The notes below the pieces were generated by a model, which had not been told where the DNA came from, did no database searches, and was given only the letters and a program-made list of their open reading frames with translations. The position numbers and the translations under genes were made by a program. Of a stretch of DNA of 55,391 bases, positions 517 to 23,434 are shown one piece after another. Location of the stretch: positions 1 to 55,391 of the forward strand of contig PLLC01000099.1 of assembly GCA_003141195.1 (NCBI GenBank), written 5' to 3'. The number at the start of each line of letters is the position of its first letter. Position 1 is the first letter of the stretch. The DNA comes from Syntrophaceae bacterium. Its GTDB lineage: Bacteria > Desulfobacterota > Syntrophia > Syntrophales > UBA5619.

Positions 517-1275
517 TTAAATGGTTTGATATCCGACAAGCTGGACGAAAGAAGCGACGTCCAGGCTGGCTCCTCCGACCAGCGCCCCGTTGATGTCCGG
601 CTGGCGCATCAGATCGACGATATTCTTCGGTGTGACGCTTCCCCCGTATAGAATGGAGATCTCCGCCGCCTGTTCACTTCCATACCGGCCGGCGATCCAT
701 TCCCGGATGAGCCGATGCACCTCTTCCGCCTGCGCCGGGGTGGCCGTCCTGCCGGTGCCGATCGCCCAGACCGGCTCATAGGCGACCAGGACGCGGCTTA
801 TATCACCGGCGGTTAAATTATTCAATCCCTCTTTTAACTGCCGTTCGACAACGTTTTGCATCCGGCCCTCTTCCCGTTCCTGCAGGGTTTCCCCGATGCA
901 GAGGATCGGCTTCAGGCCCGCTGAAAGGGCGGTCCGGAGCTTCCGGTGGATGCGCTCATCTCCCTCGCCGAAGAGCGTGCGCCGCTCCGAGTGGCCGATG
1001 ATCACATACGCGCAGCCGGCTTCGCGGATCATTTCTCCGGAGATCTCCCCGGTGAAGGCCCCTTTCTCCGATTCATGGAGGTTCTGGGCGGCCAGACAGA
1101 CGGGCGACCCCCGGAGGAGCTCCGCCACGGTGTGTAGCGCCGTGAAGGGCGGGGCGATGATCACCTCCGGTTCCGGCGGGGCGGCGAGGGCGTTCCGGAG
1201 GCGCGAGGCAAAATCGATCGCCTCGGCGACCGTCTTGTTCATCTTCCAGTTTCCTGCGATGACCGGGCGGACCAT
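517..1275 (-). CDS. tpiA: Triose-phosphate isomerase
   Basis: Interconverts dihydroxyacetone phosphate and glyceraldehyde 3-phosphate in cytosolic glycolysis and gluconeogenesis. The 252-residue length is typical. All catalytic residues are present: Lys11 in GNWKMNK, His95 in VIIGHSERR, Glu167 in AYEPVWAIGTG, and the phosphate-binding YGGSV near the C-terminus. The ATG at 1275 has a GGAGG Shine-Dalgarno; the frame stays open to 1392 but the extra residues are unlike the family. It is co-directional with secG. The rest of the lower glycolytic set (gapA, pgk) is about 5 kb away on the same strand, separated by a pseudogene and a large gene on the opposite strand. Confidence 0.97.
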   Translation of the reverse strand: MVRPVIAGNWKMNKTVAEAIDFASRLRNALAAPPEPEVIIAPPFTALHTVAELLRGSPVCLAAQNLHESEKGAFTGEISGEMIREAGCAYVIIGHSERRTLFGEGDERIHRKLRTALSAGLKPILCIGETLQEREEGRMQNVVERQLKEGLNNLTAGDISRVLVAYEPVWAIGTGRTATPAQAEEVHRLIREWIAGRYGSEQAAEISILYGGSVTPKNIVDLMRQPDINGALVGGASLDVASFVQLVGYQTI

Positions 1276-1764: not shown

Positions 1765-2240
1765 TCAGAGACCCTTTTCTTCCGTCCCGATCTTTTCCCT
1801 TGCCGCGGAACAGACCATGCCGATCAGCGACAGAATGAAAAAGATCGTGAAGAGGGTGTGAAAACTGTTCAAAAATGCATCCGGGCGATCGTGTTGCTGA
1901 AGAACATGGCGGCGGCGATGCCTCCCGCGCCCCGTCCGGCGATGAGGACCCAGCCGTTCGTGGCGAAGGCGCAGACCAGGTGGGCAGCGAGGAAGGTGGC
2001 CATGCCGATTTTGAACAGAGGCCTTCGGCCGTAAATGTCGGCAAGCCGTCCGAAGGGGATCAGGAGAACGGCGTTCATTATCAGATAGGCCGAGACGACA
2101 TACTGGAGCCGGGCATGGTTCATGCCCAGCTCCCGGCCGATCGTCGGCAGGGCCACATTGATGGACGATCCCGTATAGGTCGCCAGGAAGGAGGCGCAGG
2201 ATACGGCCACGAAAACCAGTATCTTATCCCTTTTGTTCAT
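1765..2240 (-). pseudogene. MFS drug-efflux-type transporter, internal deletion
   Basis: The first 120 or so residues, from the ATG at 2240 (AAAGGA Shine-Dalgarno), are the N-terminal part of a major facilitator protein of the DHA2/EmrB type: helix 1, then helices 2-3 with motif A (GRLADIYGRRPLF). This frame stops at 1869. In another frame, about 1880-1765 encodes a last membrane helix and polar tail (HTLFTIFFILSLIGMVCSAA), exactly what the end of such a transporter looks like. The roughly 300 residues between are missing. The simplest reading is one deletion with a junction near 1875 that also shifted frame. It is divergent from the large gene starting at 2341. Confidence 0.8.
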
Positions 2241-2340
2241 CTCGAATTCCTTTGAAGAGGTTCCAAAAAATCGGCGACGGCCATTCATTTCGGAAAAGTT
2301 ATGAATTGCAATATTTGCCCATTCACGTTAGTCTGTCGGT

Positions 2341-5300
2341 ATGGCTACAAGCGAAAAGACCCGGCACCTGACGGCCCTGGAAATCAATCTTGAAAGAACC
2401 AAAGCGGTCGTGGATATCCCTGAAAAATACAGGATACTCCTAAGTGTCGTCAAGAACCATTACGGGGTGTCGAAGCGAACGGAAGAATTGCTCGTTGAGC
2501 TTCATCACCCCTTTGTGAACTGGGAGTACCTGCTGGTACAGCTCAAAGGCCTTTCCATAGGCGATTTTTATGATTTCAACACCCACGAAGATGGTTTATC
2601 CGCACTGAAATCCTTTGCAGATATTTATCTTACCGTCATCTCTTCGGCCGGCAACGAAGAGGTTAAAGACAACGCCGTCCGTTATTGCTTCGAATATCTC
2701 CATACCGTTCTTTCCAGCAGCGGCAACCTTCTGGAGAGAAACACGGCCCTGTTTCCACCCGTCTTTCGGTCTCTCGCCGATCTGTCGCGGACGCAGAGTC
2801 ATTTGTTGAAGAAATCATCGAGTTATATGAAGGCCATCGCCAGACTGATGATGGAGAATCATGTCGGAATAGATCTGAATGAGGTCAACCGACTCCTCTT
2901 TTCTGCCTTCAAAGCGACGTATCGGTACTGGCTTACGCAACCCGATCCTTCACAATGGTTTTCCCAGGATGGCGAGACCAAGGAAGATCACGACGCCTAT
3001 CGTGATCTGATCTCACCTCTTTCCCACGAACATATCCGCAGGCTGCTCTCCCGGTTAAAAGACCCTGATCAACATGCGGAGACCGCTGCGGATAAGCTTG
3101 CACCGTACCTGGACATGCCCGACCATGCGCAGATCGCAAACGGTTATCTTGTGATTGCCGATGCCCTTGAAAAATCAAGCGCCTTTGAGGGACGCCGTTA
3201 TCTCGTAAAGCTCCATTTTCTTTTCAATTTGATGAGTGTCGCCGGGCTGTCGGATATCCACAACGCGGGCCTGATCGAGATCAATCGCTGCCTGGGAAGG
3301 GCGTTGAAAGAAGAAAGCGATCGGAATATCCATGATCTTGTGCAAAAGATATTCCGTTTATTGAAAAAACCGGTCTCACAGAATCAATACCGGAGTTCGA
3401 TCCTCGATTGCGTCACCACACTGGCCAAAGAAATCTTTGAATTGAATCGCCACCCTCTTGTGGACACCTTCATCGAGGAGCTCGTGGCCTTCGGTTTTCA
3501 GCATCCCGACGTCAAGGGCTCGACCACCGAATGGCAGATCCAGGTGAACCCGGCCCATATTCAAAACATCCGCTCCTGGCTGGAGATTATTTCCCGGAAG
3601 CCGAGATGGACCAAGAAACTTCTCTCGGCCCTGATTATCAATTTGAAATTAAGAGGGGTTTTCGTTCGGGATACGGATCTTCTCCAGAAGGATATCTCCC
3701 GGCTCCTGAATGCCGATATCCTGCCCGCGTACAACCTGCTGAAGCAGCTTCTCAGAATCTTCCCGATCTATTTCACCGAGATCGGCGCAGAAGGGGAGCT
3801 CCGGACGATCTCCACGGCGGTGGATGAACTTTCCGCCAGAAACGACAGGCTCATCTATTTTCTGAGGAAGCAGTCTCACGTTGAAAGCAACAGCCGCCTG
3901 GTCCCCTTTATCGAAGACATTTTTCGTTACTGGAACTCGGGCGACAAGCCATTTCTGAAGAACCACCTGCCCGAGGAGGTTTACAGAGAGGTTCAGGCTG
4001 CGGGCGAATATTTCGACGACCTTCATGTCATATTCGGCGACCTGTTTCAGAAGATCCATGGCGACGTTGCGAAATTGCTTGAATGGGACCGCGAGAAAAT
4101 ATCAAAAGAGATCAACGGTGTCGCCGTCGTCAGCGAGAGAGAAAAAGAACGCGCCGAACTGATGATCCGGTTCTATCAGCTCCTTTATAACAAGTATTTC
4201 CATCAGTACGTGGATATCCTCAAAGACCTTGAAATGTCCTGTCTGCTGGATCTGCGGAAAATTCGTTCTCTCAAACGCTCCCTGCAGAAAAAGGATTATT
4301 ACAAAAGCCTGACCCTCGTTCTGGCGATGCTCGCCGTTCTGAAGGAGAAGGTCCTTTCATCCCAAAAAACGGACTATTTTGAAAATATCTATTATAAACG
4401 GCATATTGCCGCTGGAATCCCGTCCATGTACGGAACCTATCGCGAAGAAAAATTTGAAGCCATGGGGCTCACGTTTCGCCTTGAAAGCTTTGCCACGATG
4501 CTTTTTGAAAGACTGGTGGAATCCCTGAACCTCAAGTTCATCACCAAAAGCACCCTTTTGAGAATCCACGAATATCTCTGGCTCTACATCAAGGCGCTCG
4601 AACTGGAAGGTCTGGCCACGGAAGGACTTGTCGCCAAGCTGAGATACATTACGAGCGCCCTGCAGATCAGGCAGTTTTCCATCGATCAGTATATCGATAT
4701 CTTTCAGTTCATCGCCAAAGGCATTCAGGATATCACCCGCGATTACTATATCGATGCCCATCGCTCCAACCTGCCTGTCATTATCGGCCAACTGATCGAT
4801 GGCGACGAAACCAGGGACAAAAAAACCATAACGCCGAAGGACCAGAAGGTCTTTTATCAATACTCGGAAAACTTTGTCCGTTCCATCATCGCCTCCGCCT
4901 TCGGCCTGCAGGTCCTGGATAATTTCGTGAGCGCCGTCATCCGGACGCTGAGCGCCGAGCTTGAAAAATTCAAGGACAATAAAGAGATCCTCAATCTGGT
5001 CATGGCCTATATCCCGGAATTGGCCATCTCGACCCTTTATAAAAAAAACAAGGATGCCGACAATCAGATCCTCATCGGCAACAAGGCTTATTTGTTAAAG
5101 GAACTGATCTCCTTCAACCTCCCCGTGCCGCCGGGATTTGTCATCACCACGGAGGTGTTCCGGGGTTATGAAGGCGTTGTGGGATATAAATATATTTACA
5201 ACGATTTGAAGCGGAGGGTTTACAATGAGATCAAGGCGCTTGAACGGATTACCGGGAAGACATTCGGCAATCCCCAGAACCCCCTGCTGCTTTCCGTGAG

Positions 5301-6555
5301 AAGCGGCGCAACGATTTCACTTCCCGGGATGATGCGTTCCTTTCTCAATGTGGGGATCAATGAAACCATCGCGGAGGGGTTCGCCCGCAATGAAGATCAT
5401 CGGTGGGCGGCATGGGATTCATACCGGAGATTCCTGCAGACCTGGGGGATGTTCCAGGGGCTGGAAAGAAATATTTTCGACGAAATCATGATCCGTTACA
5501 AAAACCGCTATGCGGTTGCGAAGAAATTTCAGTTCACCCCGGAACAGATGCAACTGCTCGCCCTTTCCTATAAAGAGGCCGTGGTAAAAAGGGGCATCCG
5601 AATTCTGGATAACGCCTATCAGCAATTGCAGCACGCCATCCTTGACGTTTTCGCCTCCTGGCATTCCGAACAGGCGCGGATCTACCGCCATCAGATGCAT
5701 CTTTCCGACGAATGGGGCACGGCTGTCATTGTCCAGGCCATGGTATTCGGAAATTTGCACGAAAATTCAGGGTCAGGGGTGATCTTTACGCGGGATCCCA
5801 AGAGTTCCTCGCAGGATGTGGCCATCAACGGTGATTTCATCTTCCGCGTTCAGGGAGAAGATATCGTCTCCGGTCTTGTGGAAACATTCCCCATTTCGGA
5901 AAAACAGAGACTCTCGGAGAAAAGGGATTCCCTGATCTCCCTGGAAACGAAATTTCCGGAAATCTACAACGAACTGATCCGGATCGCAGAATTTCTGGTC
6001 TATGAAAAAGGATTCAACCAGCAGGAGATCGAATTCACCTTTGAGAACGCCACGAAAAAAGGGCTCTACATCCTCCAGACGCGAGACATGGTTCAGCGGG
6101 AAACCGCAAAGGTGAGAACCTTTGTCGGCGACGGCGATCTGGAACGATCTTTCCTCGGCATGGGCATCGGGGTCAGCGGTGGCGCCTTGACCGGAAGGGT
6201 GGTTTATTCTGAAGAAGAGATCGAACATTTCAGGGAGAAGGAGCCTGAAACCGCCCTGATCCTGATCCGTCCCGATACGGTTCCCGACGATGTCGGTATT
6301 CTTCTGAAGGCCGACGGCATTCTGACCGCGAGAGGCGGCGGCACGTCCCATGCGGCGGTCACGATTCCTCAACTGAATAAAGTCGGCGTGGTGGGGTTCA
6401 ACAAGCTTCACGTCTATGAGTCGGAAGGGTATAGCAAGGTCGACGGAAAAACCATACAGGGCGGAGATTTCATCAGTATCGACGGCTGGAGCGGGGCCGT
6501 CTATGCGGGAAAGCACGAAATCGGCGCCGATGAATCTTATAAAATCATCTTTTAG
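2341..6555 (+). CDS. Giant PPDK-like protein: ATP-grasp and phosphohistidine domains only
   Basis: A 1404-residue protein. About residues 910-1260 form the PEP-synthase/pyruvate phosphate dikinase nucleotide-binding domain (LIGNKAYLLKEL, PVPPGFVITTEVF, LLSVRSGA, GSGVIFTRDP, EIEFTFE, LYILQTRDM). Residues about 1275-1395 form the swivelling phosphohistidine domain, with probable catalytic His1337 in GGGTSHAAV. It then ends: the PEP/pyruvate-binding TIM barrel is absent. The first 900 residues are charged, helix-rich and not recognised. The enzyme could phosphorylate its own histidine, but the acceptor cannot be told from sequence. The ATG has no clear Shine-Dalgarno, but an in-frame stop 10 bases upstream excludes a longer start. 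It converges on the gap-like gene with a 21-base gap. Confidence 0.85.
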   Translation: MATSEKTRHLTALEINLERTKAVVDIPEKYRILLSVVKNHYGVSKRTEELLVELHHPFVNWEYLLVQLKGLSIGDFYDFNTHEDGLSALKSFADIYLTVISSAGNEEVKDNAVRYCFEYLHTVLSSSGNLLERNTALFPPVFRSLADLSRTQSHLLKKSSSYMKAIARLMMENHVGIDLNEVNRLLFSAFKATYRYWLTQPDPSQWFSQDGETKEDHDAYRDLISPLSHEHIRRLLSRLKDPDQHAETAADKLAPYLDMPDHAQIANGYLVIADALEKSSAFEGRRYLVKLHFLFNLMSVAGLSDIHNAGLIEINRCLGRALKEESDRNIHDLVQKIFRLLKKPVSQNQYRSSILDCVTTLAKEIFELNRHPLVDTFIEELVAFGFQHPDVKGSTTEWQIQVNPAHIQNIRSWLEIISRKPRWTKKLLSALIINLKLRGVFVRDTDLLQKDISRLLNADILPAYNLLKQLLRIFPIYFTEIGAEGELRTISTAVDELSARNDRLIYFLRKQSHVESNSRLVPFIEDIFRYWNSGDKPFLKNHLPEEVYREVQAAGEYFDDLHVIFGDLFQKIHGDVAKLLEWDREKISKEINGVAVVSEREKERAELMIRFYQLLYNKYFHQYVDILKDLEMSCLLDLRKIRSLKRSLQKKDYYKSLTLVLAMLAVLKEKVLSSQKTDYFENIYYKRHIAAGIPSMYGTYREEKFEAMGLTFRLESFATMLFERLVESLNLKFITKSTLLRIHEYLWLYIKALELEGLATEGLVAKLRYITSALQIRQFSIDQYIDIFQFIAKGIQDITRDYYIDAHRSNLPVIIGQLIDGDETRDKKTITPKDQKVFYQYSENFVRSIIASAFGLQVLDNFVSAVIRTLSAELEKFKDNKEILNLVMAYIPELAISTLYKKNKDADNQILIGNKAYLLKELISFNLPVPPGFVITTEVFRGYEGVVGYKYIYNDLKRRVYNEIKALERITGKTFGNPQNPLLLSVRSGATISLPGMMRSFLNVGINETIAEGFARNEDHRWAAWDSYRRFLQTWGMFQGLERNIFDEIMIRYKNRYAVAKKFQFTPEQMQLLALSYKEAVVKRGIRILDNAYQQLQHAILDVFASWHSEQARIYRHQMHLSDEWGTAVIVQAMVFGNLHENSGSGVIFTRDPKSSSQDVAINGDFIFRVQGEDIVSGLVETFPISEKQRLSEKRDSLISLETKFPEIYNELIRIAEFLVYEKGFNQQEIEFTFENATKKGLYILQTRDMVQRETAKVRTFVGDGDLERSFLGMGIGVSGGALTGRVVYSEEEIEHFREKEPETALILIRPDTVPDDVGILLKADGILTARGGGTSHAAVTIPQLNKVGVVGFNKLHVYESEGYSKVDGKTIQGGDFISIDGWSGAVYAGKHEIGADESYKIIF

Positions 6556-6576: not shown

Positions 6577-7857
6577 TCAACGAAACAGGTTTTTATGGAC
6601 GTATACGGTCAGATCGCCGAGCCTGTTCGTGTAGCTGCCGTATTCATTGTCATACCAGCCGAATATCTTGGCGTGGACAACGGGGATCCGCAGGGTCGAT
6701 TGTGATGATGTTCTGAGAAAGGCGTCCGGCAGATCGGGGACATGGGCGAGATCGACATCAATGAATGCCGTTCGGATATGGTTGAATTGTCCTTCAATCA
6801 CGATGGCCGCATCCATTCCGATCAGATCGGTCGATACGTTCTGCTCCTCCGAATAGACCACCAGATGCTCGGGATCGTTCCCGGAGGCCTCCTTATAGAT
6901 GTCATTGAGCATGCCGGTGGTCAGGGGGGCAATTTTACCGTCTTGGTTTGCGCAGGTTTGAAAGGTCGCATTCAGGATGATCAAAGATTCCGTGTTCGTC
7001 GGCACCCGGATCGAATCCGCCATAAAACCGATATTTTTCACTTCCGGAATCACCTGGTTCAAGGCCTCGGCGGCATTGGTGGAAGTCAGGATGATGTTGT
7101 TGAGCGTGCTTCTGTTTTTGCGCAGATCCTTTTCGCCGGCCTTCGGTGTCTTATCGAGGATGCTCTGCGAGTTTGTGACCGCGTGAATCGTCGACATGGA
7201 CGCGGTGAGGATCTTGCGGGTCGCTTCATTTTCGAGAAGCGGTTTGAGCATGTGCGCCAGACCGGTTGTGGTGCAGGAAGCCGCGGAAATAATTTGGTGT
7301 TTCTTATAGTCAAAGGCGGTGTGGTTGATCCCGTAGATGAGCGTCACGGCGGAGTCGGGTACGGACAAGGACTTGTTTTTGATCTTGAATGCCGAAGAAT
7401 TGATCACCACCTTTGCCCCGCCGGCGAGATGCCCCTTCAGGGAGCCGCTTTTTTCGTCCGCCGTCAGGGTGGGGTCCTGAAATTTGCCCGTGCATTCCAC
7501 CACCACATCCACGCCGTGGTTCCGCCAGCCGATCTCGGCCGGGTTTCGCGCCTCCCTCAGGATGGTCACGGGGATGCCGTCGATGAGGAGCGTGCCTTTT
7601 TTTTCATCGACAATCCGGATCATCCTTTCCGCCTTGATGCCGTACAGGAACCGGTGGATGGTTCCGTAGGTCGCATCCTTTTCGATCAGTTGCGCGATGG
7701 CGGGAAGTCCTTTCCCGACGCCTCTTCCCACATTGACGAAGATCTCCTGAAAATATTTTCTTCCGACATGGTGCCACAGGGTAAGCTTGCCTATCCTCCC
7801 GAGGCTGTTGATGCCGAGAACCGGTCGCCTGTTTTCAAAAACCTCGACTTTCCCCAT
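6577..7857 (-). CDS. Second, atypical glyceraldehyde-3-phosphate dehydrogenase paralogue
   Basis: A 426-residue GAPDH-family protein, about 90 residues longer than gapA of the same operon. It keeps the Rossmann start (LGINSLGRIGK), catalytic Cys195 (SAASCTTTGLAH, where gapA has [12 protein letters not shown]) and His224 (STIHAVTNSQSILD). Inserts lie before and after the first nucleotide-binding strands, and where gapA has VND the strand ends VNVG, so the acidic residue that usually binds the NAD ribose seems lost. Cofactor or substrate preference may therefore differ; this is inference. The second ATG (7857) is preferred because AAGGAGGT directly abuts the first (7863). It is 122 bases after pgk, last in gapA-pgk-gap-like. 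Confidence 0.85.
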   Translation of the reverse strand: MGKVEVFENRRPVLGINSLGRIGKLTLWHHVGRKYFQEIFVNVGRGVGKGLPAIAQLIEKDATYGTIHRFLYGIKAERMIRIVDEKKGTLLIDGIPVTILREARNPAEIGWRNHGVDVVVECTGKFQDPTLTADEKSGSLKGHLAGGAKVVINSSAFKIKNKSLSVPDSAVTLIYGINHTAFDYKKHQIISAASCTTTGLAHMLKPLLENEATRKILTASMSTIHAVTNSQSILDKTPKAGEKDLRKNRSTLNNIILTSTNAAEALNQVIPEVKNIGFMADSIRVPTNTESLIILNATFQTCANQDGKIAPLTTGMLNDIYKEASGNDPEHLVVYSEEQNVSTDLIGMDAAIVIEGQFNHIRTAFIDVDLAHVPDLPDAFLRTSSQSTLRIPVVHAKIFGWYDNEYGSYTNRLGDLTVYVHKNLFR

Positions 7858-7979
7858 ACGCATACCTCCTTTCTGCTTTGAGAAACCATTGCGAACGTGC
7901 CTCTTCGCAAACCATAGACTTGCCCTCTTCTGTACGGGGGTGTGGGTTTTGAATCCGGTCATGATTCAAGGGGTAAGGG

Positions 7980-9170
7980 TTACTGGTCCTGCAATATTGC
8001 GATCCCTGGCAGTTCCTTCCCTTCGAGGTACTCGAGCGACGCCCCGCCGCCGGTGGAGATGTGGGTGATCTGATCGGCGACGCCCGCTTTTTCGACGGCG
8101 GATGCGCTGTCCCCTCCGCCGATGATGGTCACGGCCTTTGACGAGGCGAGCGCTCTGGCGATCTCGTTCGTTCCCCGGGCGAACGCTTCGATTTCAAAGA
8201 CGCCTACCGGCCCGTTCCAGATGATCGTGCCTGCGGACAGGATCGCCTCTTTGAATAGTTCAACGGTCTCGGGGCCGATATCGACGCCCATCATGTCCGC
8301 CGGGATCCGATCGATCGGGACGACCTTCGACGGCACGCCGGCGGCAAGTTCGGTCGTGATCACGACATCGACCGGGATGATGAGCTTCAGACGGGTCATC
8401 GCCTTGAGCTCCGCCCATATCCCCTTGGCCTGCTCGATGAACTTTTCTTCCACAAGCGATTTTCCGACCTCAAGACCCTGCGCCTTCAGGAAGGTGAAGA
8501 TCATCCCGCCGCCGATGATAAGCGTATCCACCTTCCGTGCGAGATTCCGGATCACCATGATCTTCGACGACACCTTTGCACCGCCGATGATCGCGACGAA
8601 CGGCCTTTGCGGATTGTCGAGGGACTTGCCCATGATTTCGAGTTCTTTTCGGATCAGAAAACCGCAGACGCCCGGCAGAATACGGGCGACCCCCTCGGTC
8701 GACGCATGAGCCCGGTGCGCCGTTCCGAAGGCATCGTTGACATACACATCCGCGAGGGCCGCGAGCCGTTTCGAGAAAGCGGCATCGTTCTCCTCTTCCT
8801 CCGGATGGAAGCGGACGTTTTCGAGCATCACAACCTCCCCGCTCACCATTTTTGAGATAGCGGTCTCGACCTCTTCCCCGATGCAATCATTGAGCTTGAT
8901 GACTTTCCTGCCGAGCAGTTCCTCCAGCCGTTTGGCGATCGGGTTCATCCGCAGCCCTTCCGTCGCCCCGTCGGGTCTTCCCAGATGCGAGACGAGGATG
9001 ATCTTTGCACCCCTGTCGATCAGGTAGCGGATGGTGGGCAGGGCCGCCCGGATCCGCATGTCGTCCGTGATGTTCTGCTGCTTGTCCATGGGGACGTTAA
9101 AATCGACCCGGACCAGAACCCTCTTCCCCTTCAGTTCCCCGTCTTTCAGATCCGAAATGCATTTTTTCAT
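7980..9170 (-). CDS. pgk: Phosphoglycerate kinase
   Basis: Transfers phosphate between 1,3-bisphosphoglycerate and ADP in glycolysis or gluconeogenesis. The 396-residue length is normal. The start shows the conserved [12 protein letters not shown] substrate-binding segment, followed by [25 protein letters not shown], the nucleotide-binding [10 protein letters not shown], and near the end NGPVGVFE and the [13 protein letters not shown] phosphate loop. The ATG at 9170 follows a G-rich Shine-Dalgarno by 7 bases; nine further in-frame codons upstream are not family-like. It lies 76 bases downstream of gapA, same strand. Confidence 0.97.
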
Positions 9171-9246: not shown

Positions 9247-10479
<1,233 letters not shown>

Positions 10480-12523: not shown

Positions 12524-14530
12524 CTACTGCTCCTTCAACGCTTTCCCGGCTTTTTCCTGGCTGTCATAGATGTACGGAGCCAGACGGCGCTTCTTCAGTT
12601 CATCGCCCAGTTTCATCCTCAGGAAGGCGCTGGTGGTGTAACGGGTCACCCCCCGGTAGTACTTCATGACATCCTTGACCATATCGGTGTACTCATCCAC
12701 CAGTTCAGGCAAAATATTGAAGTTGTCGTAATTGACTATGGTATTGACCTTCTTGCCCAAGGGCGCCAGGATCTGCTCCACCTTTTTCCGGATAAGCCGG
12801 ATATCATTGCGGGAGCGGATATAGTAATTTTCAAAGTTCACGAAGAAAAAATTTTCCTCGGGATGATACACCAGACGGTCTTCCAGCGGCAGGCTCAGCA
12901 GATCTTCCTTGAGTCCCATCGTCCCGGGCAGGAAGATTCTTTCATCCATCCGTTTGGGTTTCTTCGCGATGATCGGCTTGAAATCCATCTGTTCCAGGAT
13001 GTCCCGTTGCAGATCGATGCCGGGGGCGATCTCCACCAGTTTCAGGCCTTTCTCGCAGAGGGTGAAGACACACCGTTCCGTGATATACATCACCGGCCGT
13101 TTCAGCGAGGCGGCATACCGTCCGCTGAAGGTTTTCTGCTGAACCTGTCGGACGAACTTTTTTTCGCGGCCTTCCTGGATAATCTGGAGTTTGCCGCCCT
13201 CGACGGAAATTTTCAATCCGCCCGCCGTAAAGGTTCCTACAAAGATGATCCGCTTTGAATTCTGGCTGATGTTGATGAAGCCGCCGGGTCCGACCAGGCG
13301 GGGACCGTATTTGCTGACGTTGATATTCCCTTCCTGATCCACTTCCGCAGCCCCCAGGCAGGCGACATCCAGACCGCCGCCGTCATAGAAGTCAAACTGG
13401 TAGGGCTGATCGATCAGGCAGTCCATGTTGATCCCCGTACCGAAGTTGAGGCCGCCGTTGGGGAGCCCGCCGATCACACCGGGCTCCGCCGTCAGGGTCA
13501 GGTATTCGATAATTCTTTCCTCGTTGGCCACCCGGGCCACCCCTTCGGGCATGCCGATGCCGAGGTTGACGATGCTGTTGGCCTTCAGTTCGAAGGCCGC
13601 CCGGCGCGCGATGATTTTGCGTTCGTCCATGGGCAGCGGCGGAATGGACAGGATGGGGATCTTGATCTCGCAACTCAGCGCGGGGTTGTAGGGTTCGGCA
13701 AAGGTCTGCCAATGATTCTCGGCGCTGGCGACGACCACGCAATCGACCAGGATTCCTGGGACCTTGACGTCTCTTGCCCGGAGGGTTCCCCGCTCCGCGA
13801 TCCTCTCCACCTGGGCGATGACGAAACCGTTGGAATTCTTGGCTGCCATGGCCATGGAAAGGGCGTCCAGCGTCAGGGCCTCTCTCTCCATGGTGATGTT
13901 GCCGTCCGCGTCCGCCGTCGTACCGCGAATGATGGCCACATGGATGGGAAAGGCCTTGTAGAATAGGTATTCCTGTCCCTTGATCTGGATGACCTCGATG
14001 AGATCATCCCCCTTGTTCTTCGTCAGGTCGTTGATCTTCCCCCCCTCCACCCGGGGATCCACGAAGGTTCCCATCCCCACGGTGGTGATCGTTCCCGGCC
14101 GGTGGGCGGCGATATCCCGAAAGAAGTGAGAGACCACGCCCTGGGGGAAGTTGTAGCCGAAGATCTTGTTTTCCCGGATGAGCTTCTGGAGTTTGGGAGC
14201 CAGACCGATGTGCCCGCCTATGACCCGCCTCACCAGACCTTCGTGACCGAAATGGTTCAGCCCCTTGTCCTTGCCGTCGCCCTGACCGGCCGCGTAGAGC
14301 AGGGTCAAGTTCTTAGGGCTGCCCGTTCTGATGTAGTAAGCCTCCAGTCGGACGGCGATCTCCTCGGCGAAACCTGCACCGATGAAGCCGCCCGTTGCCA
14401 CCGTGTCGCCGTCACGGATGATGCGGACGGCCTCTTCCGCCGAGACCAGCTTGCCTTTCTTCACACGCTGAGACGGCAGTTGCGACAGGACGGGATGGAC
14501 CAGTTTTCTTCCCGCTTTGACCGCCTTCAT
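12524..14530 (-). CDS. Family I acyl-CoA:carboxylate CoA-transferase with C-terminal extension
   Basis: Moves CoA between an acyl-CoA and a free carboxylate, activating acids without ATP. Of 668 residues, the first 530 or so match propionate/acetoacetate CoA-transferases of the YdiF type: the alpha half opens with GDTVATGGFIGAGFAEE, the beta half with SIVNLGIGMPEGVARVA, and the catalytic glutamate is probably Glu349 in TAEPGVIGGLP with GGLNFG after it. About 130 extra C-terminal residues (from about 535) are not recognised; similar enzymes usually end near 520. GGAGG precedes the ATG. It is last in the catabolic directon, separated from the usp gene by repeat B1. Confidence 0.88.
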   Translation of the reverse strand: MKAVKAGRKLVHPVLSQLPSQRVKKGKLVSAEEAVRIIRDGDTVATGGFIGAGFAEEIAVRLEAYYIRTGSPKNLTLLYAAGQGDGKDKGLNHFGHEGLVRRVIGGHIGLAPKLQKLIRENKIFGYNFPQGVVSHFFRDIAAHRPGTITTVGMGTFVDPRVEGGKINDLTKNKGDDLIEVIQIKGQEYLFYKAFPIHVAIIRGTTADADGNITMEREALTLDALSMAMAAKNSNGFVIAQVERIAERGTLRARDVKVPGILVDCVVVASAENHWQTFAEPYNPALSCEIKIPILSIPPLPMDERKIIARRAAFELKANSIVNLGIGMPEGVARVANEERIIEYLTLTAEPGVIGGLPNGGLNFGTGINMDCLIDQPYQFDFYDGGGLDVACLGAAEVDQEGNINVSKYGPRLVGPGGFINISQNSKRIIFVGTFTAGGLKISVEGGKLQIIQEGREKKFVRQVQQKTFSGRYAASLKRPVMYITERCVFTLCEKGLKLVEIAPGIDLQRDILEQMDFKPIIAKKPKRMDERIFLPGTMGLKEDLLSLPLEDRLVYHPEENFFFVNFENYYIRSRNDIRLIRKKVEQILAPLGKKVNTIVNYDNFNILPELVDEYTDMVKDVMKYYRGVTRYTTSAFLRMKLGDELKKRRLAPYIYDSQEKAGKALKEQ

Positions 14531-14565
14531 GCCTTGCCTCCTGGAGATACAAACGGTATCCCTGA

Positions 14566-14689
14566 CAGGCTGTTGAAAAACGCCCGTCTACTGCATTTCC
14601 CTCATCCTTCGCCGTTCAACGTACTAGAAAGTACGCCTCACGGCTCAGGATTTCGGGGGCCTTGCATCCAGACGTTTTTGAACAGCCTG
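14566..14689. repeat. Dispersed palindromic repeat, copy B1
   Basis: A 124-base element with near-perfect inverted ends: CAGGCTGTTGAAAAACG at the left and CGTTTTTGAACAGCCTG at the right. The inner core (CTCATCCTTCGCCGTTCAAC, AGTACGCCTCACGGCTCAGG) resembles that of type A, so A and B are two branches of one family. It fills most of the gap between the usp and CoA-transferase genes. Copy B2 at 48239-48361 is nearly identical in opposite orientation. Confidence 0.85.
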
Positions 14690-14697
14690 CTGATCGG

Positions 14698-15216
14698 TTA
14701 AATCTCCCCCAGGGTGATGTCGGTTTCCCCCTTCGGCAGCGGGATGATATAGACCGGCTTGCGGATCCGGCGGAGCACCTTCTCGGAGACGCTGCCGAGG
14801 AAGGTATGGCTGATCGCCCCCTTGCCGTTCGTCCCCATGATCACGGTGTCGCAACCCAGTTCATCGGTCTTGTCCAGGATCTCCGCGGCAGGGTCCCCGA
14901 AGACGACATGGATCCCGATGACCCTCTTGAGCGTCTCCGGGTCGTCGCTGAGTTCCCGTTCGGCGAACTGTTTCAGACGCTCTTTGATCCGCAGACGGAT
15001 ATTCTCCTGCGATTCCTTCCTTCTCTGGTCGATTTTCTCCTGATCGATGTGCATGAGCAGGAGCGCTTCCGTCTGCGGTGAAAGGGACTCGATGACGTGG
15101 AGGAGGTGGATTTTTGCGTCGTGCTTCCGCGCCGTGTTGACTGCGTAGCGGAAGGCGTAGGCTGAGTTCTTGCTCAGGTCGGTCGCGTACAGAACGTTTT
15201 GTATCTTCGGAATCAT
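14698..15216 (-). CDS. Universal stress protein, UspA family
   Basis: A 172-residue single-domain UspA protein. It begins with the family strand and loop (VLYATDLSKNSAYAFRYA) and ends with the ATP-binding G-2X-G-9X-G-S signature (MGTNGKGAISHTFLGSVSEKV), so it probably binds ATP. A charged helical insert lies at about residues 55-95. It starts 52 bases after the TRAP permease dctM on the same strand with an AGGAGAG Shine-Dalgarno. UspA proteins often accompany TRAP transporters (the TeaD type binds ATP and modulates uptake), so a role in regulating this transporter is a reasonable inference. Confidence 0.9.
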   Translation of the reverse strand: MIPKIQNVLYATDLSKNSAYAFRYAVNTARKHDAKIHLLHVIESLSPQTEALLLMHIDQEKIDQRRKESQENIRLRIKERLKQFAERELSDDPETLKRVIGIHVVFGDPAAEILDKTDELGCDTVIMGTNGKGAISHTFLGSVSEKVLRRIRKPVYIIPLPKGETDITLGEI

Positions 15217-15268
15217 ATTCTCTTCTCTCCTTTTTCATGTTGCAATTCGAAATGGACCCTCCCGCCGG

Positions 15269-16594
15269 TTATTTTCCGAACATCGCATGGGGCAGCCAGA
15301 CGACGATCTCCGGGAAGATCGTGCAGATTACAACTCCAATCGCCTGGAGGATCAGAAACGGGACGACGCCCCGGTAGATGTGGCCCAAATTCACCCCCTC
15401 GATCCCGAGCCCCGACAGGTAGAACAGCGCGTAGCCGAACGGCGGGGTCAGGAAGGACATCTGCAGGTTGATCGCGAGCATCGCGACGAACCAGAGCATG
15501 TCGAAGCCCAGTTGCTGGGCGACGGGCAGAAAGATCGGGAAGGTGATCATGACGATCCCGATCCAGTCGATGAAGCAGCCGAGGATGATGTAGATGATCA
15601 TGATCAGGATGTAGGTGCCCCATTTCCCGAGGCCCAGTCCCATGATCGCGTTGACCACGGCGGTGCCGCCGCCCAGCCCCAGAAAAACGCCGGTGAAGCA
15701 GGTTGCGCCGACAAGGATGATGATCACCATCGTGACCGTCCGGGAGGTCTGGTAGAGGCAGTCGGAAAAGTTTTTCCACGTCAGTTTCCCGTAGGCGATG
15801 ACCATGATGAAGGACGCGAAGGCGCCGACGCCGGCCGCCTCCGTCGGCGTGGCGATGCCGAAGAAGATCGCCCCGAGGACGAGGAAGATCAGCCCCAGCG
15901 GCGGGACGGCGTAGCGGAAGGTGTCCTTGATGCGTTTGGCAAAGGGGATCAATGCGAGCTCATCCGCGGGAACGGGAGGGCCAAGTTCGGGGTTGATCCC
16001 GCAGCGGATGGCGATGTAGATCATATAGAGGACGCCGAGCGTGACCCCGGGGATGACGCCGGACATGAGAAGCTTGCCGGCGGAGAGCGCCCCCTGGTCG
16101 GCCATCATGACGAGCATGATGCTGGGGGGGATGAGGATTCCCAGGCTCCCGCCCGCCGCGACCATCCCCATCGTCATCTCCTTCTGGTAGCCGTAGCGGA
16201 TCAGCATCGGTCCGGCGAGGAGTCCCATTGTGACGACCGACGCGCCGACGATCCCTGTGCAGGCCGCAAAGACGATGCAGACACCGATCACCGCGAGCCC
16301 CACGCCTCCCCGGATCGGACCGAGGAGAATCCGGAGCGCCTTGAACAGTTCGTCCGCCACGCCCGACATCGTCAGGAAATTCCCCATCAGGATGAAGAGC
16401 GTGATCGCCACGAGGACGAAGTTGTCCATCGTGCCGTAGATCCGGTCCATGAAGATCCCGAAGAACTGCGGTCCGATGAAGAAGAAACCGAACAGAACGC
16501 CGACCCCGCCGAGTGCGAAGGCCAAGGGGTGTCCCATGAAGAAGAAGATCACCAGCGCGACAAACATGCCGATGGCAGCCATTTCCGGACTCAT
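15269..16594 (-). CDS. dctM: TRAP transporter large permease (DctM)
   Basis: The 441-residue, 11-12 helix subunit that carries sodium-coupled uptake in TRAP transporters. Typical stretches are MGHPLAFALGG near the start, PMLIRYGYQKEMTMGMVAAGGSLGILIPPS at about 150-180 (given here as the family signature region), EAAGVGAFAS and the C-terminal LTPPFGYALFYLSG. Its ATG overlaps the dctQ stop by four bases (ATGA), so translation is probably coupled. It acts with DctQ and the periplasmic DctP encoded upstream. Confidence 0.95.
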   Translation of the reverse strand: MSPEMAAIGMFVALVIFFFMGHPLAFALGGVGVLFGFFFIGPQFFGIFMDRIYGTMDNFVLVAITLFILMGNFLTMSGVADELFKALRILLGPIRGGVGLAVIGVCIVFAACTGIVGASVVTMGLLAGPMLIRYGYQKEMTMGMVAAGGSLGILIPPSIMLVMMADQGALSAGKLLMSGVIPGVTLGVLYMIYIAIRCGINPELGPPVPADELALIPFAKRIKDTFRYAVPPLGLIFLVLGAIFFGIATPTEAAGVGAFASFIMVIAYGKLTWKNFSDCLYQTSRTVTMVIIILVGATCFTGVFLGLGGGTAVVNAIMGLGLGKWGTYILIMIIYIILGCFIDWIGIVMITFPIFLPVAQQLGFDMLWFVAMLAINLQMSFLTPPFGYALFYLSGLGIEGVNLGHIYRGVVPFLILQAIGVVICTIFPEIVVWLPHAMFGK

Positions 16595-17106
16595 TGGCTC
16601 ACCCCCTTTTCCTGAACAAGAACGTTGACGGTCTTGATCACCTCGGAGATCCCCTGCAGCAGCAGAAACAGGGCGGTGAGCGGGATGACCGTCTTGATCG
16701 GGTAGAGCGGCGGGCCCCAGATGCTCCAGGATGTTTCCAGCATGCTCCAGGAGTTCAGCGCATAGGAGACGCCGAAATAGAGCCAGACGCCGATGAACGG
16801 GAAGTACATGAAGAGGTAGCAGATCAGCGACAGGATCGCCTGGGTCTTCGGGGAGTAGCGACTGGTGACGAGATCGATCGTCACGTGTGATTTATACAGC
16901 AGGCCATACGCCGCAACGAGCATGAAATGCGCGCCGTAGAAGAAATTGCTCATCTCGAACGTCCAGACCGTGGGGTGCTGGAACGAGCGGGTGATCACCT
17001 CATAAACGACCAGCAGCGTCAGCGGGATCATAAGGTAGCTGCAGACGATCCCCGTCCAGCGGCTGAACGCATCGATCCTTTTGGATATGCCAAGCCATGT
17101 GTTCAT
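16591..17106 (-). CDS. dctQ: TRAP transporter small permease (DctQ)
   Basis: A 171-residue integral membrane protein with four predicted helices, the small subunit that forms the membrane complex with DctM. The family pattern of a tryptophan-rich amphipathic segment after helix 1 (VWTFEMSNFFYGAHFMLVAA) is visible. A GAGAGAGG Shine-Dalgarno precedes the ATG. It starts 83 bases after dctP and overlaps dctM by four bases. Confidence 0.92.
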   Translation of the reverse strand: MNTWLGISKRIDAFSRWTGIVCSYLMIPLTLLVVYEVITRSFQHPTVWTFEMSNFFYGAHFMLVAAYGLLYKSHVTIDLVTSRYSPKTQAILSLICYLFMYFPFIGVWLYFGVSYALNSWSMLETSWSIWGPPLYPIKTVIPLTALFLLLQGISEVIKTVNVLVQEKGVSQ

Positions 17107-17189
17107 ATCGGGAACCTCTCTCTCGGGAAGTGGGGGGGAGCGCCCGGTATCCTCCGGGCGCTCCGTTCGGTTCAGATCTGTTCAGACCC

Positions 17190-18290
17190 TTACTTCAGGC
17201 CGGGAAGTTTCGGTATGGTAAAGGGGTTGCGTCCCTGGGAAAACGGTTCCTGGGCATCCCGGGCAGTCCGGAAGTCCTTCAGGTACTGGAACATGGATAT
17301 GGCGGCCTTGCTGTAATCGGGGTTCTTTGCCGATTCATCCACGAGGTATTCCCAGGCGTACTCTTCGATCTTTTTGAGCTCGGCGTTGGAGAGCTTGAAG
17401 ATCTGCGTGCCCGCCTTCTTGAAGAGTTGCAAGGCCTCGATGTTGCCGGTCTCGTACCAACTGCTGATATAGGAGACATTGGCCATGGCCGCTTTCTCGA
17501 CGATCACCTTCAGGTCCGCCGGGAGCTTCTCCCAGACGCCTTTGTTGATCATGACGCCGAAGGTGGAGGAGGGCTGATGCCAGCCGGGACCTATGTTGTA
17601 TTTGGTGACCTCGCTGAAGCCCATCTTCCAGTCGATGGAGGGACTGCAGAACTCCGCACCGTCGATCGTCGCCATCTGGAGGGCCTGGTAGATCTCGCCT
17701 CCGGAGATCATGACCTGAGCCGCCCCCAATTTCTGGAGGACGTGCCCCTGGGCCTTTCCGGACATCCGGAGCTTCTTTCCCTTGTAATCGGCCAGGGTCT
17801 TGATCGGGACGCGGGCGCGGATGCCCGATTCCATCGGACTGACCGACGTGAGGAAATACATCAGGTTGTATTTTCCGAACAGGTCGTCGAACACCTTCTT
17901 CCCGCCGTAATGGTAGTACCAGTTGACGGCATCGTACTGGCAGAGCCCCATCGGATAAGAACCGAGGAGGTCGAAGGCGGAGTTTTTGCCGGCCCAGTAG
18001 CTCGGCCAGTCGCCGCCGCACTCCACGGAGCCCTTGGCGACGGTGTCGAAGACCGCGTTCGCCGGGACCAGTTCGCCGGCGGGCGAGACGGTGATCTGGA
18101 GGCGACCATTGCTCAGTTCGCCGACCAGCTTGGCGAAGTTCTTGTCCCCCTCGATCAGGTTGATGGCCGGCGTCCAGGTGCTGACCATCTTCCATTTGAT
18201 CGGTTGATCGGCGGCCGCGGCAATGCCGAGGCTGGTGCAGAAAATCGTTACCATCATGACGGCGATCAGGATTCCCAACCATTTTTTCAT
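17190..18290 (-). CDS. dctP: TRAP transporter periplasmic binding protein (DctP/TakP type)
   Basis: A 366-residue exported receptor that delivers a carboxylate to DctQM. It starts with a signal peptide (MKKWLGILIAVMMVTIFC, cleavage probably after AAA near residue 26). The mature protein has KGKKLRMSGKAQG, where the arginine should bind the substrate carboxylate, and the helix ATIDGAEFCSPSIDWKMGF followed by GPGWHQPS. This arrangement resembles TakP, the 2-oxoacid receptor of Rhodobacter sphaeroides, so a 2-oxo- or hydroxy-monocarboxylate is the likely ligand (inference). The ATG at 18290 was chosen by the GGGGGAAA Shine-Dalgarno and signal peptide. Confidence 0.92.
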   Translation of the reverse strand: MKKWLGILIAVMMVTIFCTSLGIAAAADQPIKWKMVSTWTPAINLIEGDKNFAKLVGELSNGRLQITVSPAGELVPANAVFDTVAKGSVECGGDWPSYWAGKNSAFDLLGSYPMGLCQYDAVNWYYHYGGKKVFDDLFGKYNLMYFLTSVSPMESGIRARVPIKTLADYKGKKLRMSGKAQGHVLQKLGAAQVMISGGEIYQALQMATIDGAEFCSPSIDWKMGFSEVTKYNIGPGWHQPSSTFGVMINKGVWEKLPADLKVIVEKAAMANVSYISSWYETGNIEALQLFKKAGTQIFKLSNAELKKIEEYAWEYLVDESAKNPDYSKAAISMFQYLKDFRTARDAQEPFSQGRNPFTIPKLPGLK

Positions 18291-18430
18291 AGCATTTCCC
18301 CCTTTTTTTAATGAGATCATGAAAACAATTTCCTGGGGCCGGCGGACGCATTCGCTCCTTTTCCTGTGTCCGCCGCCGGTATTCATCCGTGCGTTTTTCC
18401 GGGCGTCACCTCCTTTTCTTCTGAAATCTT

Positions 18431-20077
18431 TTATCGGGTCTCAACGGCCTTCATCTTTTCAACCTCCCGTCTGCGAAGCTCCCCCCGGATGATCTTGCCG
18501 GTGCTCGTCATGGGAAGCTCCGCCACGAACTCGATCTCCCGCGGGTACTCGTGGGCGGCCAGCCGGGTTTTCACGAATTCCTGGATCTCCCGGGCCAGCT
18601 CCTCCGAGCCGTTTACCCCGGCCTTGAGCACCACGAAGGCCTTGACCACCTCCGTGCGCACCTCGTCGGGTTTGCCGATGACGGCGGACATGGTCACGGC
18701 CGGATGCTTGAGCAGGCAGTCCTCGATCTCTGCGGGTCCGATCCGGTAACCGGAGGAGGTGATGACATCGTCTTTCCGGGCGACATACCAGATATAGCCG
18801 TCCTCATCCTTCTTTCCGAGATCTCCCGTGAGGGACCAGTCAAGGACGAATTTGTCCAGGGTGGCCTGGGGGTTCTGCCAGTAGTTGAGGAACATGACCG
18901 GGTCGGGGCGCAGGATCGCGATCTCACCGACCGTCCCCGGCGGGACGATATTCCCCTCCGCATCCACCACCTCCACGCGGTGGCCGGGGATCGGCTTTCC
19001 CATCGAACCCCGGCGGATGGGCATGATCTCGCAGCAGTTTCCCACGACGAGATTCACCTCGGTCTGGCCATAGAACTCGTTGATCTCCAGATCCATCACC
19101 TGGCGGCCCCAGTCGAGCAGCTCCTCGCCCAGGGTCTCGCCGCCGCAGCCGATCGTCCGCATCCGGTAGTCGTAGCGGCCCTTCGGGTCCTTGACCTGAC
19201 GCATCATCTTGAGGGCGGTCGGCGGCATGAAGGCGTTCCGGATGCCGTATTTGGCGATAAAATGAAAGGCCTGTTCGGGGTCGAATTTTTTGGCGCGGTA
19301 GGCGACGACGGGGACGCCGTGGTGCCAGCTCGGCAGGAGGACGTCAATCAGCCCGCCGATCCAGGCCCAGTCGGCGGGCGTCCAGTAGACGTCTTCCTTC
19401 TTCGGGAAGAAGTTGTGGAAGAATTCGACCCCCGGGACGTGACCGAGAACGACCCGGTGGGCATGGAGAGCCCCTTTCGGCGGCCCGGTCGTTCCCGAGG
19501 TGTAGATGATCAGGGCCGGATCGTCCGCCTTCGTCGGCACGGGTTCGAAGCGGGAGGCGCCCTTTTCCAGCTCCGCCCAGAAATCGATGGCGCCGGCCTC
19601 CGGCTTCCCCCGGGTGACGAAGAGAAGTTTCAGGTCGGGGAGGCGGTCGCGGATCTGGAGCACCTTCTCGACATTGGCCCCGTCGGTGATGACCGCTTTC
19701 GCCCCGCTGTTTCCGAGACGATATTCCAGGGCGTCAGGGCCGAAGAGGGTGAACAGTGGGATCGCGATGGCGCCCAATTTGTAAACGGCGACATGGGTGA
19801 TCGCCGTCTCAGGGCACTGCGGGAGCAGGATGCCGACCCGGTCGCCCCGGGCGACGCCGTGCGCCCGCAGGGCGTTGGCCAGACGGTTGGAGAGATTCTT
19901 GATATCCCAGAAGGTGTATTTTTCGGTCCGGCCGCCTTCGTCCTCATAGATGAGGGCGAGGCGGTAGCGCTCGTCCGCCCATTTGTCGCAGACATCGACC
20001 CCGATGTTGTAGTACTCCGGGATCTGCCAGTGGAAACTCCGATATACCTCATCGTAAGTGCTTTTCTTTTGCAGCAT
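18431..20077 (-). CDS. AMP-forming acyl-CoA synthetase
   Basis: Activates a carboxylate to its CoA thioester using ATP via an acyl-adenylate. The 548-residue protein shows the whole ANL-superfamily set: P-loop YTSGTTGPPKGALH near residue 210, FYGQTEVN, the SLTGDLGKKDEDGYIWYVARKDD hinge region (A8), and the catalytic lysine in STGKIIRGELRRRE near the end. The similarity looks closest to medium-chain/ACSM-type synthetases, but the acid used cannot be read from sequence. It lies between the ferritin-like gene (64 bases) and dctP (140 bases), so it may activate what the TRAP system imports. Confidence 0.92.
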   Translation of the reverse strand: MLQKKSTYDEVYRSFHWQIPEYYNIGVDVCDKWADERYRLALIYEDEGGRTEKYTFWDIKNLSNRLANALRAHGVARGDRVGILLPQCPETAITHVAVYKLGAIAIPLFTLFGPDALEYRLGNSGAKAVITDGANVEKVLQIRDRLPDLKLLFVTRGKPEAGAIDFWAELEKGASRFEPVPTKADDPALIIYTSGTTGPPKGALHAHRVVLGHVPGVEFFHNFFPKKEDVYWTPADWAWIGGLIDVLLPSWHHGVPVVAYRAKKFDPEQAFHFIAKYGIRNAFMPPTALKMMRQVKDPKGRYDYRMRTIGCGGETLGEELLDWGRQVMDLEINEFYGQTEVNLVVGNCCEIMPIRRGSMGKPIPGHRVEVVDAEGNIVPPGTVGEIAILRPDPVMFLNYWQNPQATLDKFVLDWSLTGDLGKKDEDGYIWYVARKDDVITSSGYRIGPAEIEDCLLKHPAVTMSAVIGKPDEVRTEVVKAFVVLKAGVNGSEELAREIQEFVKTRLAAHEYPREIEFVAELPMTSTGKIIRGELRRREVEKMKAVETR

Positions 20078-20141
20078 AGACTCCCTACCTTTTTTAAACA
20101 GTCGGCACTTCAGCACGCAGGATCTGATGACGCGGTTTTAT

Positions 20142-20573
20142 TCATGCATGCAACTTTTTAATCTTTCCGATCAGCTCCTCCTTTGCGGTCTGGAGTTTCT
20201 TCAGGGCCTTTGCGACCTCCGCAAGTTTGAGCTTTTCCGAGGCTGTTAGCAGAAATCGCGAAGCTGTCTTTTCGGCGGCGAGAACGGCCCGGATGCCATC
20301 GGCCGGGTTTTTGACCTCTTTCTTCGGCATTTCGGACGGAAAATCCTCGGCCTTCAGATTGCGGACCGGCTCCAGGATCATCTCGGTGATGTTTTCCCGG
20401 CGGATGGTTTCCAGCGTCCGGCGGTGCTTCGTTTTCACCTGGACGATCTCTTCCAGGGCTGGCCTAACGACGAGACAGTCCTTTCTCGCGAGCAGCTTTT
20501 CCAGAAAGGCGAGGGAACGGTCTTCCGTATCGATGGCAAAGGTCAGGATGGCGCTGAACGTGGACAGATTCAT
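20142..20573 (-). CDS. Small helical protein, ferritin-like/rubrerythrin-like
   Basis: A 143-residue, almost entirely helical protein. Its first helix (FAIDTEDRSLAFLEKLL) and the later KHRRTLETIRRENITEM recall the ferritin-like four-helix family of short rubrerythrin-type proteins, but a full set of di-iron ligands is not obvious, so metal binding is uncertain. The C-terminus is lysine-rich. The ATG at 20573 has a strong GGGAGGAG Shine-Dalgarno and begins 13 bases after the semialdehyde dehydrogenase stop, a tight operon position between two acyl-CoA enzymes. Confidence 0.7.
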   Translation of the reverse strand: MNLSTFSAILTFAIDTEDRSLAFLEKLLARKDCLVVRPALEEIVQVKTKHRRTLETIRRENITEMILEPVRNLKAEDFPSEMPKKEVKNPADGIRAVLAAEKTASRFLLTASEKLKLAEVAKALKKLQTAKEELIGKIKKLHA

Positions 20574-20586
20574 GGCCTCTCCTCCC

Positions 20587-22041: not shown

Positions 22042-22080
22042 ATCTTCCCTCCTTCATTTGATATGAAAAAAATGCCTTCC

Positions 22081-22105
22081 TTCCCCTCCCGCTCGGGGAG
22101 GGGAA
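22081..22105. repeat. GC hairpin between alcohol dehydrogenase and mmsA
   Basis: TTCCCCTCC and its complement GGAGGGGAA form a strong stem with a 7-base loop. On the minus strand a run of seven T follows after about 10 bases, so it could attenuate transcription between the two genes. Similar C/G-rich hairpins occur at 26240-26268 and 39892-39910, so it may equally be a small repeat. Confidence 0.5.
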
Positions 22106-22127
22106 TGTGATTTCTGTATGGGCGGTC

Positions 22128-23291: not shown

Positions 23292-23405
23292 AAAAACCCT
23301 CCTTAATGAACTATCCCGAAAGCTTTGCTGACAAGGTTTTCAGGCCGGGCCAAGAATACGAAAAAGAAACATAAACCCATGATCATGGATCTGTGAAGCG
23401 CGGTC

Positions 23406-23434
23406 AAGATACTGAGCCGGGCCGGAATTGTCAA
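23406..23434 (-). promoter_or_regulatory. Probable sigma-70 promoter of the leftward catabolic directon
   Basis: On the minus strand TTGACA (23434-23429), a 17-base spacer, then TATCTT (23411-23406). The start would be near 23399, giving a leader of about 107 bases to the alcohol dehydrogenase gene. The -35 box is perfect, the -10 has two mismatches. Confidence 0.6.

Follow-up and report, generated by a model that had tools for sequence, protein, structure and literature searches.

The DNA analysed here, called the window throughout, is a stretch of 55,391 nucleotides from a Syntrophaceae bacterium (assembly GCA_003141195.1, contig PLLC01000099.1). Near its start lies an open reading frame (ORF), here named PPDKL, whose product resembles pyruvate phosphate dikinase (PPDK) in its C-terminal part, lacks the phosphoenolpyruvate (PEP)/pyruvate barrel of that enzyme and carries a large helical region in front. 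Tail-to-tail with it lies gapB, which encodes a divergent glyceraldehyde-3-phosphate dehydrogenase (GAPDH), and the two genes are paired almost without exception across the genomes surveyed. The features of this pair are as follows.

2341 to 6555, plus strand: PPDKL, a PPDK-like protein of 1404 amino acids (from the ORF, domains and orthologues)
2341 to 5016, plus strand: residues 1-892, N-terminal region, a predicted all-helical solenoid matching no known family or specific fold
3451 to 4785, plus strand: residues 371-815, most conserved stretch of the N-terminal region (82 sequences), proposed acceptor site
4384 to 4452, plus strand: residues 682-704, signature loop NIYYKRHIAAGIPSMYGTYREEK
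5017 to 6135, plus strand: residues 893-1265, PPDK-type ATP-grasp domain with a complete ATP site
6136 to 6552, plus strand: residues 1266-1404, phosphohistidine (swivel) domain
6349 to 6351, plus strand: codon of His1337, equivalent to PPDK His455
6577 to 7863, minus strand: gapB, divergent GAPDH of about 428 amino acids with its start taken at Met34 of the ORF, convergent with PPDKL

The PPDKL ORF is free of internal stops and its ATG lines up with the starts of its orthologues; since 83 complete homologues (22-89% identity) align with it, it is not a chance reading frame. Pfam recognized PPDK_N at residues 956-1182 (1e-30) and PEP-utilizers at residues 1306-1385 (7e-12). Among the NCBIfam models the protein scored highest for PPDK (372 bits), followed by PEP synthase (83 bits) and rifampin phosphotransferase (34 bits), all under their cut-offs. 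The individual tests gave 371.6 bits against TIGR01828 (PPDK, whole protein; cut-off 843.45), 306.5 bits against NF004531, used as a test for a VadK-like truncated PPDK (cut-off 456), and 34.4 bits against NF041857 (rifampin phosphotransferase; cut-off 999). A profile of the C-terminal part aligned with solved PPDK structures across the ATP-grasp and histidine domains. In an AlphaFold2 model of residues 205-1404, residues 893-1401 superposed on residues 1-522 of PPDK (5lu4_B; Z 38.2) and residues 893-1404 on residues 2-524 of 1kbl (Z 37.4, root-mean-square deviation 3.5 over 468 residues). PPDKL ends at the point where the PEP/pyruvate barrel of PPDK would start, and the barrel (PEP-utilizers_C) was absent from PPDKL both by Pfam and in the superposition of the model. 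The ORF and the missing domain are thus confirmed, as is the claim of the initial annotation that the ATP-grasp and phosphohistidine domains are kept, with His1337 at the position of His455, while the third catalytic domain is gone. Because the barrel is missing, PPDKL is not a PPDK.

The residues of the PPDK ATP site are all accounted for: K22, R92, D321, E323, Q335 and R337 of PPDK correspond to K915, R987, E1229, E1231, Q1246 and R1248 of PPDKL, with Glu in place of Asp at D321. Conservation was scored on 82 sequences of the family alignment, in which these residues are invariant except E1231, itself nearly invariant; His1337 is likewise invariant in all 82. Since the ATP-site and histidine residues are intact, autophosphorylation on His1337 would be expected.

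The N-terminal region proved harder to place. Pfam gave no match above cut-off for residues 1-900, and no carbohydrate-binding domain among them. Residues 1-897 were predicted to be all-helical, with about 45 helices (mean pLDDT 82.4, pTM 0.74). A sequence search of the PDB with this region returned just one designed repeat (E 0.29). The fold search returned generic helical solenoids alone, karyopherins for example, the best being CRM1 (Z 9.1 over 163 residues); such scores lie in the tool's non-specific range for helical repeats and are not evidence of a new fold. A known domain was therefore rejected by the Pfam, PDB sequence and fold searches alike, and the initial description of some 900 unrecognised helical residues stands. 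The region occurs in frames of about 1370-1590 amino acids in the phylum search, that is, joined to the C-terminal domains; the exceptions are broken genes or contig ends.

Within this region, residues 371-815 contain most of the invariant charged residues, among them H406, D444, D446, E484, R488, D495, E496, R500, R509, K510, H513, E515, K618, E681, K686, R687, H688, E702 and K704. With such a density of invariant charged residues the region is no mere spacer, and their character suggests a small-molecule site. R488, R500, R509, H513 and K618 are also kept in two paralogues of 22% identity. Both observations make binding of the acceptor by the N-terminal region a plausible, though putative, role. 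Four conserved loops (residues 392-401, 442-445, 479-484 and 682-699) are the least confident parts of the model, which would fit loops that become ordered upon binding of a ligand or partner.

GapB is a member of the GAPDH fold that departs from the ordinary enzyme in several respects. It scored 282.7 bits against TIGR01534 (type I GAPDH), under the cut-off of 367.2, and has extra segments relative to ordinary GAPDH. In ORF numbering, at least 50 of 51 sequences keep the catalytic Cys230 and His260, and Thr295 and Arg319 of the phosphate sites are conserved as well. The substrate phosphate site reads T-N-D in the ordinary enzyme, GapA, and T-N-S, T-G-S or T-S-S in GapB, so that the Asp after the Thr is lost. 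Where the second Rossmann strand ends, an invariant N-x-G-R replaces the NAD-type Asp of GapA (Asp32). Loss of this Asp is commonly a sign of NADP(H) use among GAPDHs, and the N-x-G-R motif suggests the same for GapB. Three genomes of about 1.8 Mb, each 100% complete (G088, G124 and G282), have GapB as their sole protein with the GAPDH catalytic domain (Gp_dh_C). As the only GAPDH-fold protein there, GapB must carry out the GAPDH step in these genomes, unless the step falls to some unrelated enzyme, for instance aldehyde:ferredoxin oxidoreductase or GAPN. In the complete genome G124, PPDKL is broken into two frames (G124:C1:683619-685566) beside an intact gapB; this is either a sequencing error or a case that bears on whether GapB can act by itself.

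The distribution of the two proteins links them closely. The N-terminal PPDKL profile matched 117 of 395 Desulfobacterota genomes, 115 of them strongly, and GapB, counted as present at E ≤1e-80, was found in 116 of the same genomes; 114 have both. PPDKL occurs without GapB in G171 alone (76% complete), and GapB without PPDKL in G065 and G136 alone (79% and 62% complete), all three being incomplete metagenome-assembled genomes (MAGs). Fisher's test gave p ~1e-96, uncorrected for kinship between genomes. The pairing is near-perfect across about 36 families, including genomes of 1.6-1.8 Mb. In about 25 of the 114 genomes, the complete G074 and G251 among them, the two genes lie on separate contigs or far apart, so linkage alone cannot account for their co-occurrence. 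Over 49 genomes the pairwise distances between PPDKL sequences track those between GapB sequences (r = 0.965), a correlation to which shared descent contributes. PPDKL was also found in 6 of 297 Acidobacteriota genomes, every one of which has GapB. One of 40 Calditrichota genomes, a MAG, carries PPDKL on a 4.9 kb contig and has no true GapB; a single genome, so short a contig and the missing partner mean that this contig may be a stray. A search of named genomes with the signature-loop pattern GIPSMYGT yielded loci mostly from the Syntrophales and relatives (Syntrophus, Smithella and Syntrophorhabdus), with one match each in Acidobacteriota and Calditrichota. We consider it quite probable that PPDKL and GapB are functional partners. 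This near-obligate partnership with the adjacent GAPDH had been missed in the initial annotation, whose interpretation is otherwise partly supported.

The two paralogues mentioned above have the PPDKL architecture, are 22% identical and come from one Desulfobacterota family (L174:7872-12329 in genome G365 and L175:7733-12364 in G437). Their genomes lack a true GapB. Each adjoins a gene for a 592-residue protein, the one in L174 being a GAF and sigma-54-activator protein, and the paralogues may act on a different acceptor or serve in regulation.

Genes for adjoining steps of triose-phosphate metabolism surround the pair in the window.

517 to 1275, minus strand: tpiA, triosephosphate isomerase (read from the sequence; a homologue lies beside PPDKL in relatives)
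7980 to 9170, minus strand: pgk, phosphoglycerate kinase (PGK)
9247 to 10254, minus strand: gapA, ordinary type I GAPDH

The arrangement of PPDKL and gapB recurs elsewhere. Among the 60 named-genome loci with enough downstream sequence, gapB lies directly 3' of PPDKL, convergent and within 3 kb, in 54. Of the distant Desulfobacterota loci, 19 in all, 13 have it directly 3' and co-directional, the typical gene order there being gapA-PPDKL-gapB-pgk-tpiA. Since convergent and co-directional loci both keep the genes as neighbours, their adjacency has survived a change of orientation. Four Acidobacteriota loci (L196, L197, L198 and L200) likewise have the two genes adjacent and in the same direction. 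The operon is split in G074, G251 and G295 (Desulfobacterota families f35 and f95), where gapB remains beside pgk, and in the latter two PPDKL remains beside gapA. One genome has a second gapB-pgk copy (G159:C1:505473-507924), far from its gapA-PPDKL-gapB-pgk-tpiA operon. In the window itself, a 139-residue fragment of a major-facilitator transporter, apparently a gene remnant, lies between tpiA and PPDKL (1869-2288, minus strand). Translations from 12524-25607 read as a CoA-transferase, a universal stress protein, parts of a TRAP transporter, an AMP-forming acyl-CoA synthetase, and aldehyde, iron-containing alcohol and 3-hydroxyacyl-CoA dehydrogenases, apparently fitting fatty-acid or syntrophic metabolism.

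Our preferred explanation, to which we give a probability of roughly one in three, is that PPDKL is a dikinase that works with GapB in gluconeogenesis, with 3-phosphoglycerate as the leading candidate for its acceptor. PPDKL would autophosphorylate His1337 from ATP, yielding AMP and probably pyrophosphate (PPi), and the phosphoryl group would pass to an acceptor bound by the N-terminal helical region, which would take the place of the PEP/pyruvate barrel. With 3-phosphoglycerate as the hypothetical acceptor, PPDKL would form 1,3-bisphosphoglycerate, driven by two phosphoanhydride bonds, and the NADP-type GapB, its near-obligate partner, would reduce this to glyceraldehyde-3-phosphate with NADPH. 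Together they would constitute a gluconeogenic route alongside PGK and GapA, paid for by the conversion of ATP to AMP and PPi. Here we infer the phosphorylation of His1337, the acceptor or partner site in the N-terminal region, the use of NADPH and the reductive direction. 3-Phosphoglycerate is proposed by analogy with PGK/GAPDH, ArgB/ArgC and LysC/Asd, pairs in which the acyl phosphate formed by a kinase is then reduced by an enzyme of the GAPDH fold; on this basis the specific reaction is offered tentatively. Slightly more doubtful still is the full proposal of an undescribed 3-phosphoglycerate dikinase and NADPH reductase route, with a new kind of helical acceptor domain, that would serve as a strongly driven bypass of PGK/GAPDH in energy-limited anaerobes. 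Syntrophus cells have high PPi and an AMP/ATP ratio of 5.9 (PMC4992975), conditions in which extra drive for the reduction of 3-phosphoglycerate would make sense. A literature search for the PPDKL/GapB pair or a phosphoglycerate dikinase returned nothing relevant within a coverage that omits most subscription papers, and in the literature so searched the helical region and the GAPDH partnership appear undescribed.

Several observations weigh against this explanation. All 80 genomes with the pair that were searched for PGK have it, so a second kinase is not strictly needed and replacement of PGK by PPDKL was rejected as a general rule; a GapA-type GAPDH is also retained in most genomes with the pair. 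The helical solenoid is commonly a protein-binding scaffold, the invariant charged residues could serve protein docking, and the model, in which the conserved loops are least confident, is ligand-free. The paralogues in L174 and L175 share part of the conserved set without a true GapB, so the module is not specific to GapB as a class. The preference of GapB for NADP is deduced from its sequence, and the catalysis by PPDKL is a computational prediction.

Some of these points would suit the chief rival explanation, PPDKL as a regulatory kinase, in which autophosphorylation of His1337 tracks ATP, AMP and PPi and controls GapB (or GapA/PGK), whether through binding mediated by the solenoid or through phosphoryl transfer onto the protein. 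There is a precedent in VadK, a two-domain PPDK that binds enzymes of a neighbouring pathway (PMC13400623), a solenoid is a typical protein-binding fold, and PGK is always present, leaving no catalytic gap to fill. However, one would expect some lineages to have dispensed with a regulator, but the pairing is near-perfect across about 36 families and down to genomes of 1.6-1.8 Mb; the invariant set is dense in K, R, H, D and E, more like a small-molecule site; and VadK, with 17 residues ahead of its ATP domain, has no comparable N-terminal region. We regard a regulatory role as only slightly less probable than the preferred explanation. The data do not separate it from catalysis, which we slightly favour because the pairing is strict and the invariant residues resemble a small-molecule site. 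If PPDKL is a dikinase, its acceptor may be something other than 3-phosphoglycerate, such as another phosphorylated carboxylate, a sugar phosphate or a polymer, with GapB acting on the matching aldehyde. The loss of the Asp after the Thr and the extra segments mean that the substrate of GapB may differ, and related small-molecule dikinases take varied substrates (PMC12167813 and PMC4844700), but with gapA, pgk and tpiA as neighbours, and GapB the sole GAPDH-fold protein in three complete genomes, we find this unlikely.

The pair might also run in reverse, with GapB oxidising glyceraldehyde-3-phosphate and PPDKL making ATP from 1,3-bisphosphoglycerate, AMP and PPi, thereby salvaging PPi from acyl-CoA or sulfate activation. 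PPDK is reversible, and the hosts of PPDKL presumably include groups in which PPi arises when substrates or sulfate are activated. Against this, the NADP-type site of GapB favours reduction, and genomes from which GapA has been lost still keep GapB; these look to us like organisms that need gluconeogenesis and not those that degrade sugars. In Syntrophus, Acs1 does make ATP out of AMP and PPi, and both PPi and AMP are high (PMC4992975), but on balance we hold the reverse direction to be quite improbable. Finally, the ATP and histidine domains of PPDKL are nearest to those of PPDK, as they would be if it were one part of a PPDK or PEP synthase split between two genes, with the barrel encoded elsewhere. 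In 41 genomes with the pair, however, full-domain PEP-utilizers_C matches lie in frames of at least 585 amino acids, the sizes of PtsI, PPS and PPDK, the one exception to such frames being a 37-residue fragment in the window's genome (G000), and that genome has its own full, separate PPDK. The complete genome G074 has no PEP-utilizers_C match at all yet keeps PPDKL and GapB, which refutes a split enzyme. The ordinary PPDK of the window's genome (L046:8274-10986, G000:C54) is divided over two frames beside N bases in the assembly; these explain the division, and a genuine frameshift was rejected. With the third domain missing and no standalone PEP/pyruvate domain available in trans, the earlier suggestion of an acceptor other than pyruvate is strengthened.

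In glycolysis and gluconeogenesis the triose-phosphate step is generally regarded as fixed. With PPDKL and GapB in about 30% of the Desulfobacterota sampled and in some Acidobacteriota, many anaerobes have an unannotated component of central carbon metabolism, which would be either a new reaction, in which 1,3-bisphosphoglycerate is reached by an AMP/PPi-linked path, or a phosphohistidine switch of a new kind that acts on a GAPDH. PPDKL would also extend the PEP-utilising enzymes by a novel type of domain for an acceptor or partner, and its genes may be misannotated as PPDK.

As proposed, PPDKL and GapB share the logic of PGK and GAPDH, a kinase combined with a GAPDH-fold reductase. Bacillus subtilis reportedly has a gluconeogenic, NADP-dependent GapB beside a glycolytic NAD-type GapA (as Fillinger et al. 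are said to have described in 2000); the GapB considered here differs in being longer, divergent and partnered with a relative of the dikinases. With PPDK itself (TIGR01828; 1kbl) PPDKL shares the order of an ATP-grasp and then a phosphohistidine domain, the ATP-site residues and the catalytic His, and differs in lacking the PEP/pyruvate barrel, in its 892 extra N-terminal residues and in scoring below the family cut-off. The initial annotation drew its analogies from glucan water dikinase and rifampin phosphotransferase. The former is a dikinase that also has a large N-terminal region and no PEP barrel, but that region bears carbohydrate-binding modules, of which Pfam found none in residues 1-900 of PPDKL, and its histidine domain precedes the nucleotide domain, the reverse of PPDKL. 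The analogy is loose overall; rifampin phosphotransferase does possess an acceptor-binding domain of its own (PMC4844700). Closer precedents are VadK and the phenylphosphate synthase group. VadK (Rv1127c) of Mycobacterium tuberculosis is a PPDK reduced to its ATP and histidine domains and encoded near methylcitrate-cycle genes; it undergoes autophosphorylation at His422 and associates with methylcitrate synthase and methylcitrate dehydratase (PMC13400623). Like PPDKL it is derived from PPDK, retains those two domains alone from it and has its gene near those of metabolic partners, whereas it has no large N-terminal region and belongs to the methylcitrate cycle, not to triose phosphates. HpeHI, CreHI and PpsAB (phenylphosphate synthase) combine the ATP-grasp and swivel-His domains with other acceptor domains (PMC12167813). 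Rifampin phosphotransferase and HpeHI/PpsAB resemble PPDKL in this ATP-grasp and swivel-His pair, in a non-pyruvate acceptor and in dikinase chemistry, in which AMP is formed; the kind and position of the acceptor domain differ, and their sequences resemble that of PPDKL only weakly (34 bits with the rifampin phosphotransferase model). The ATP-grasp/swivel-His engine has thus repeatedly been given other acceptor domains, and PPDKL fits that kind.

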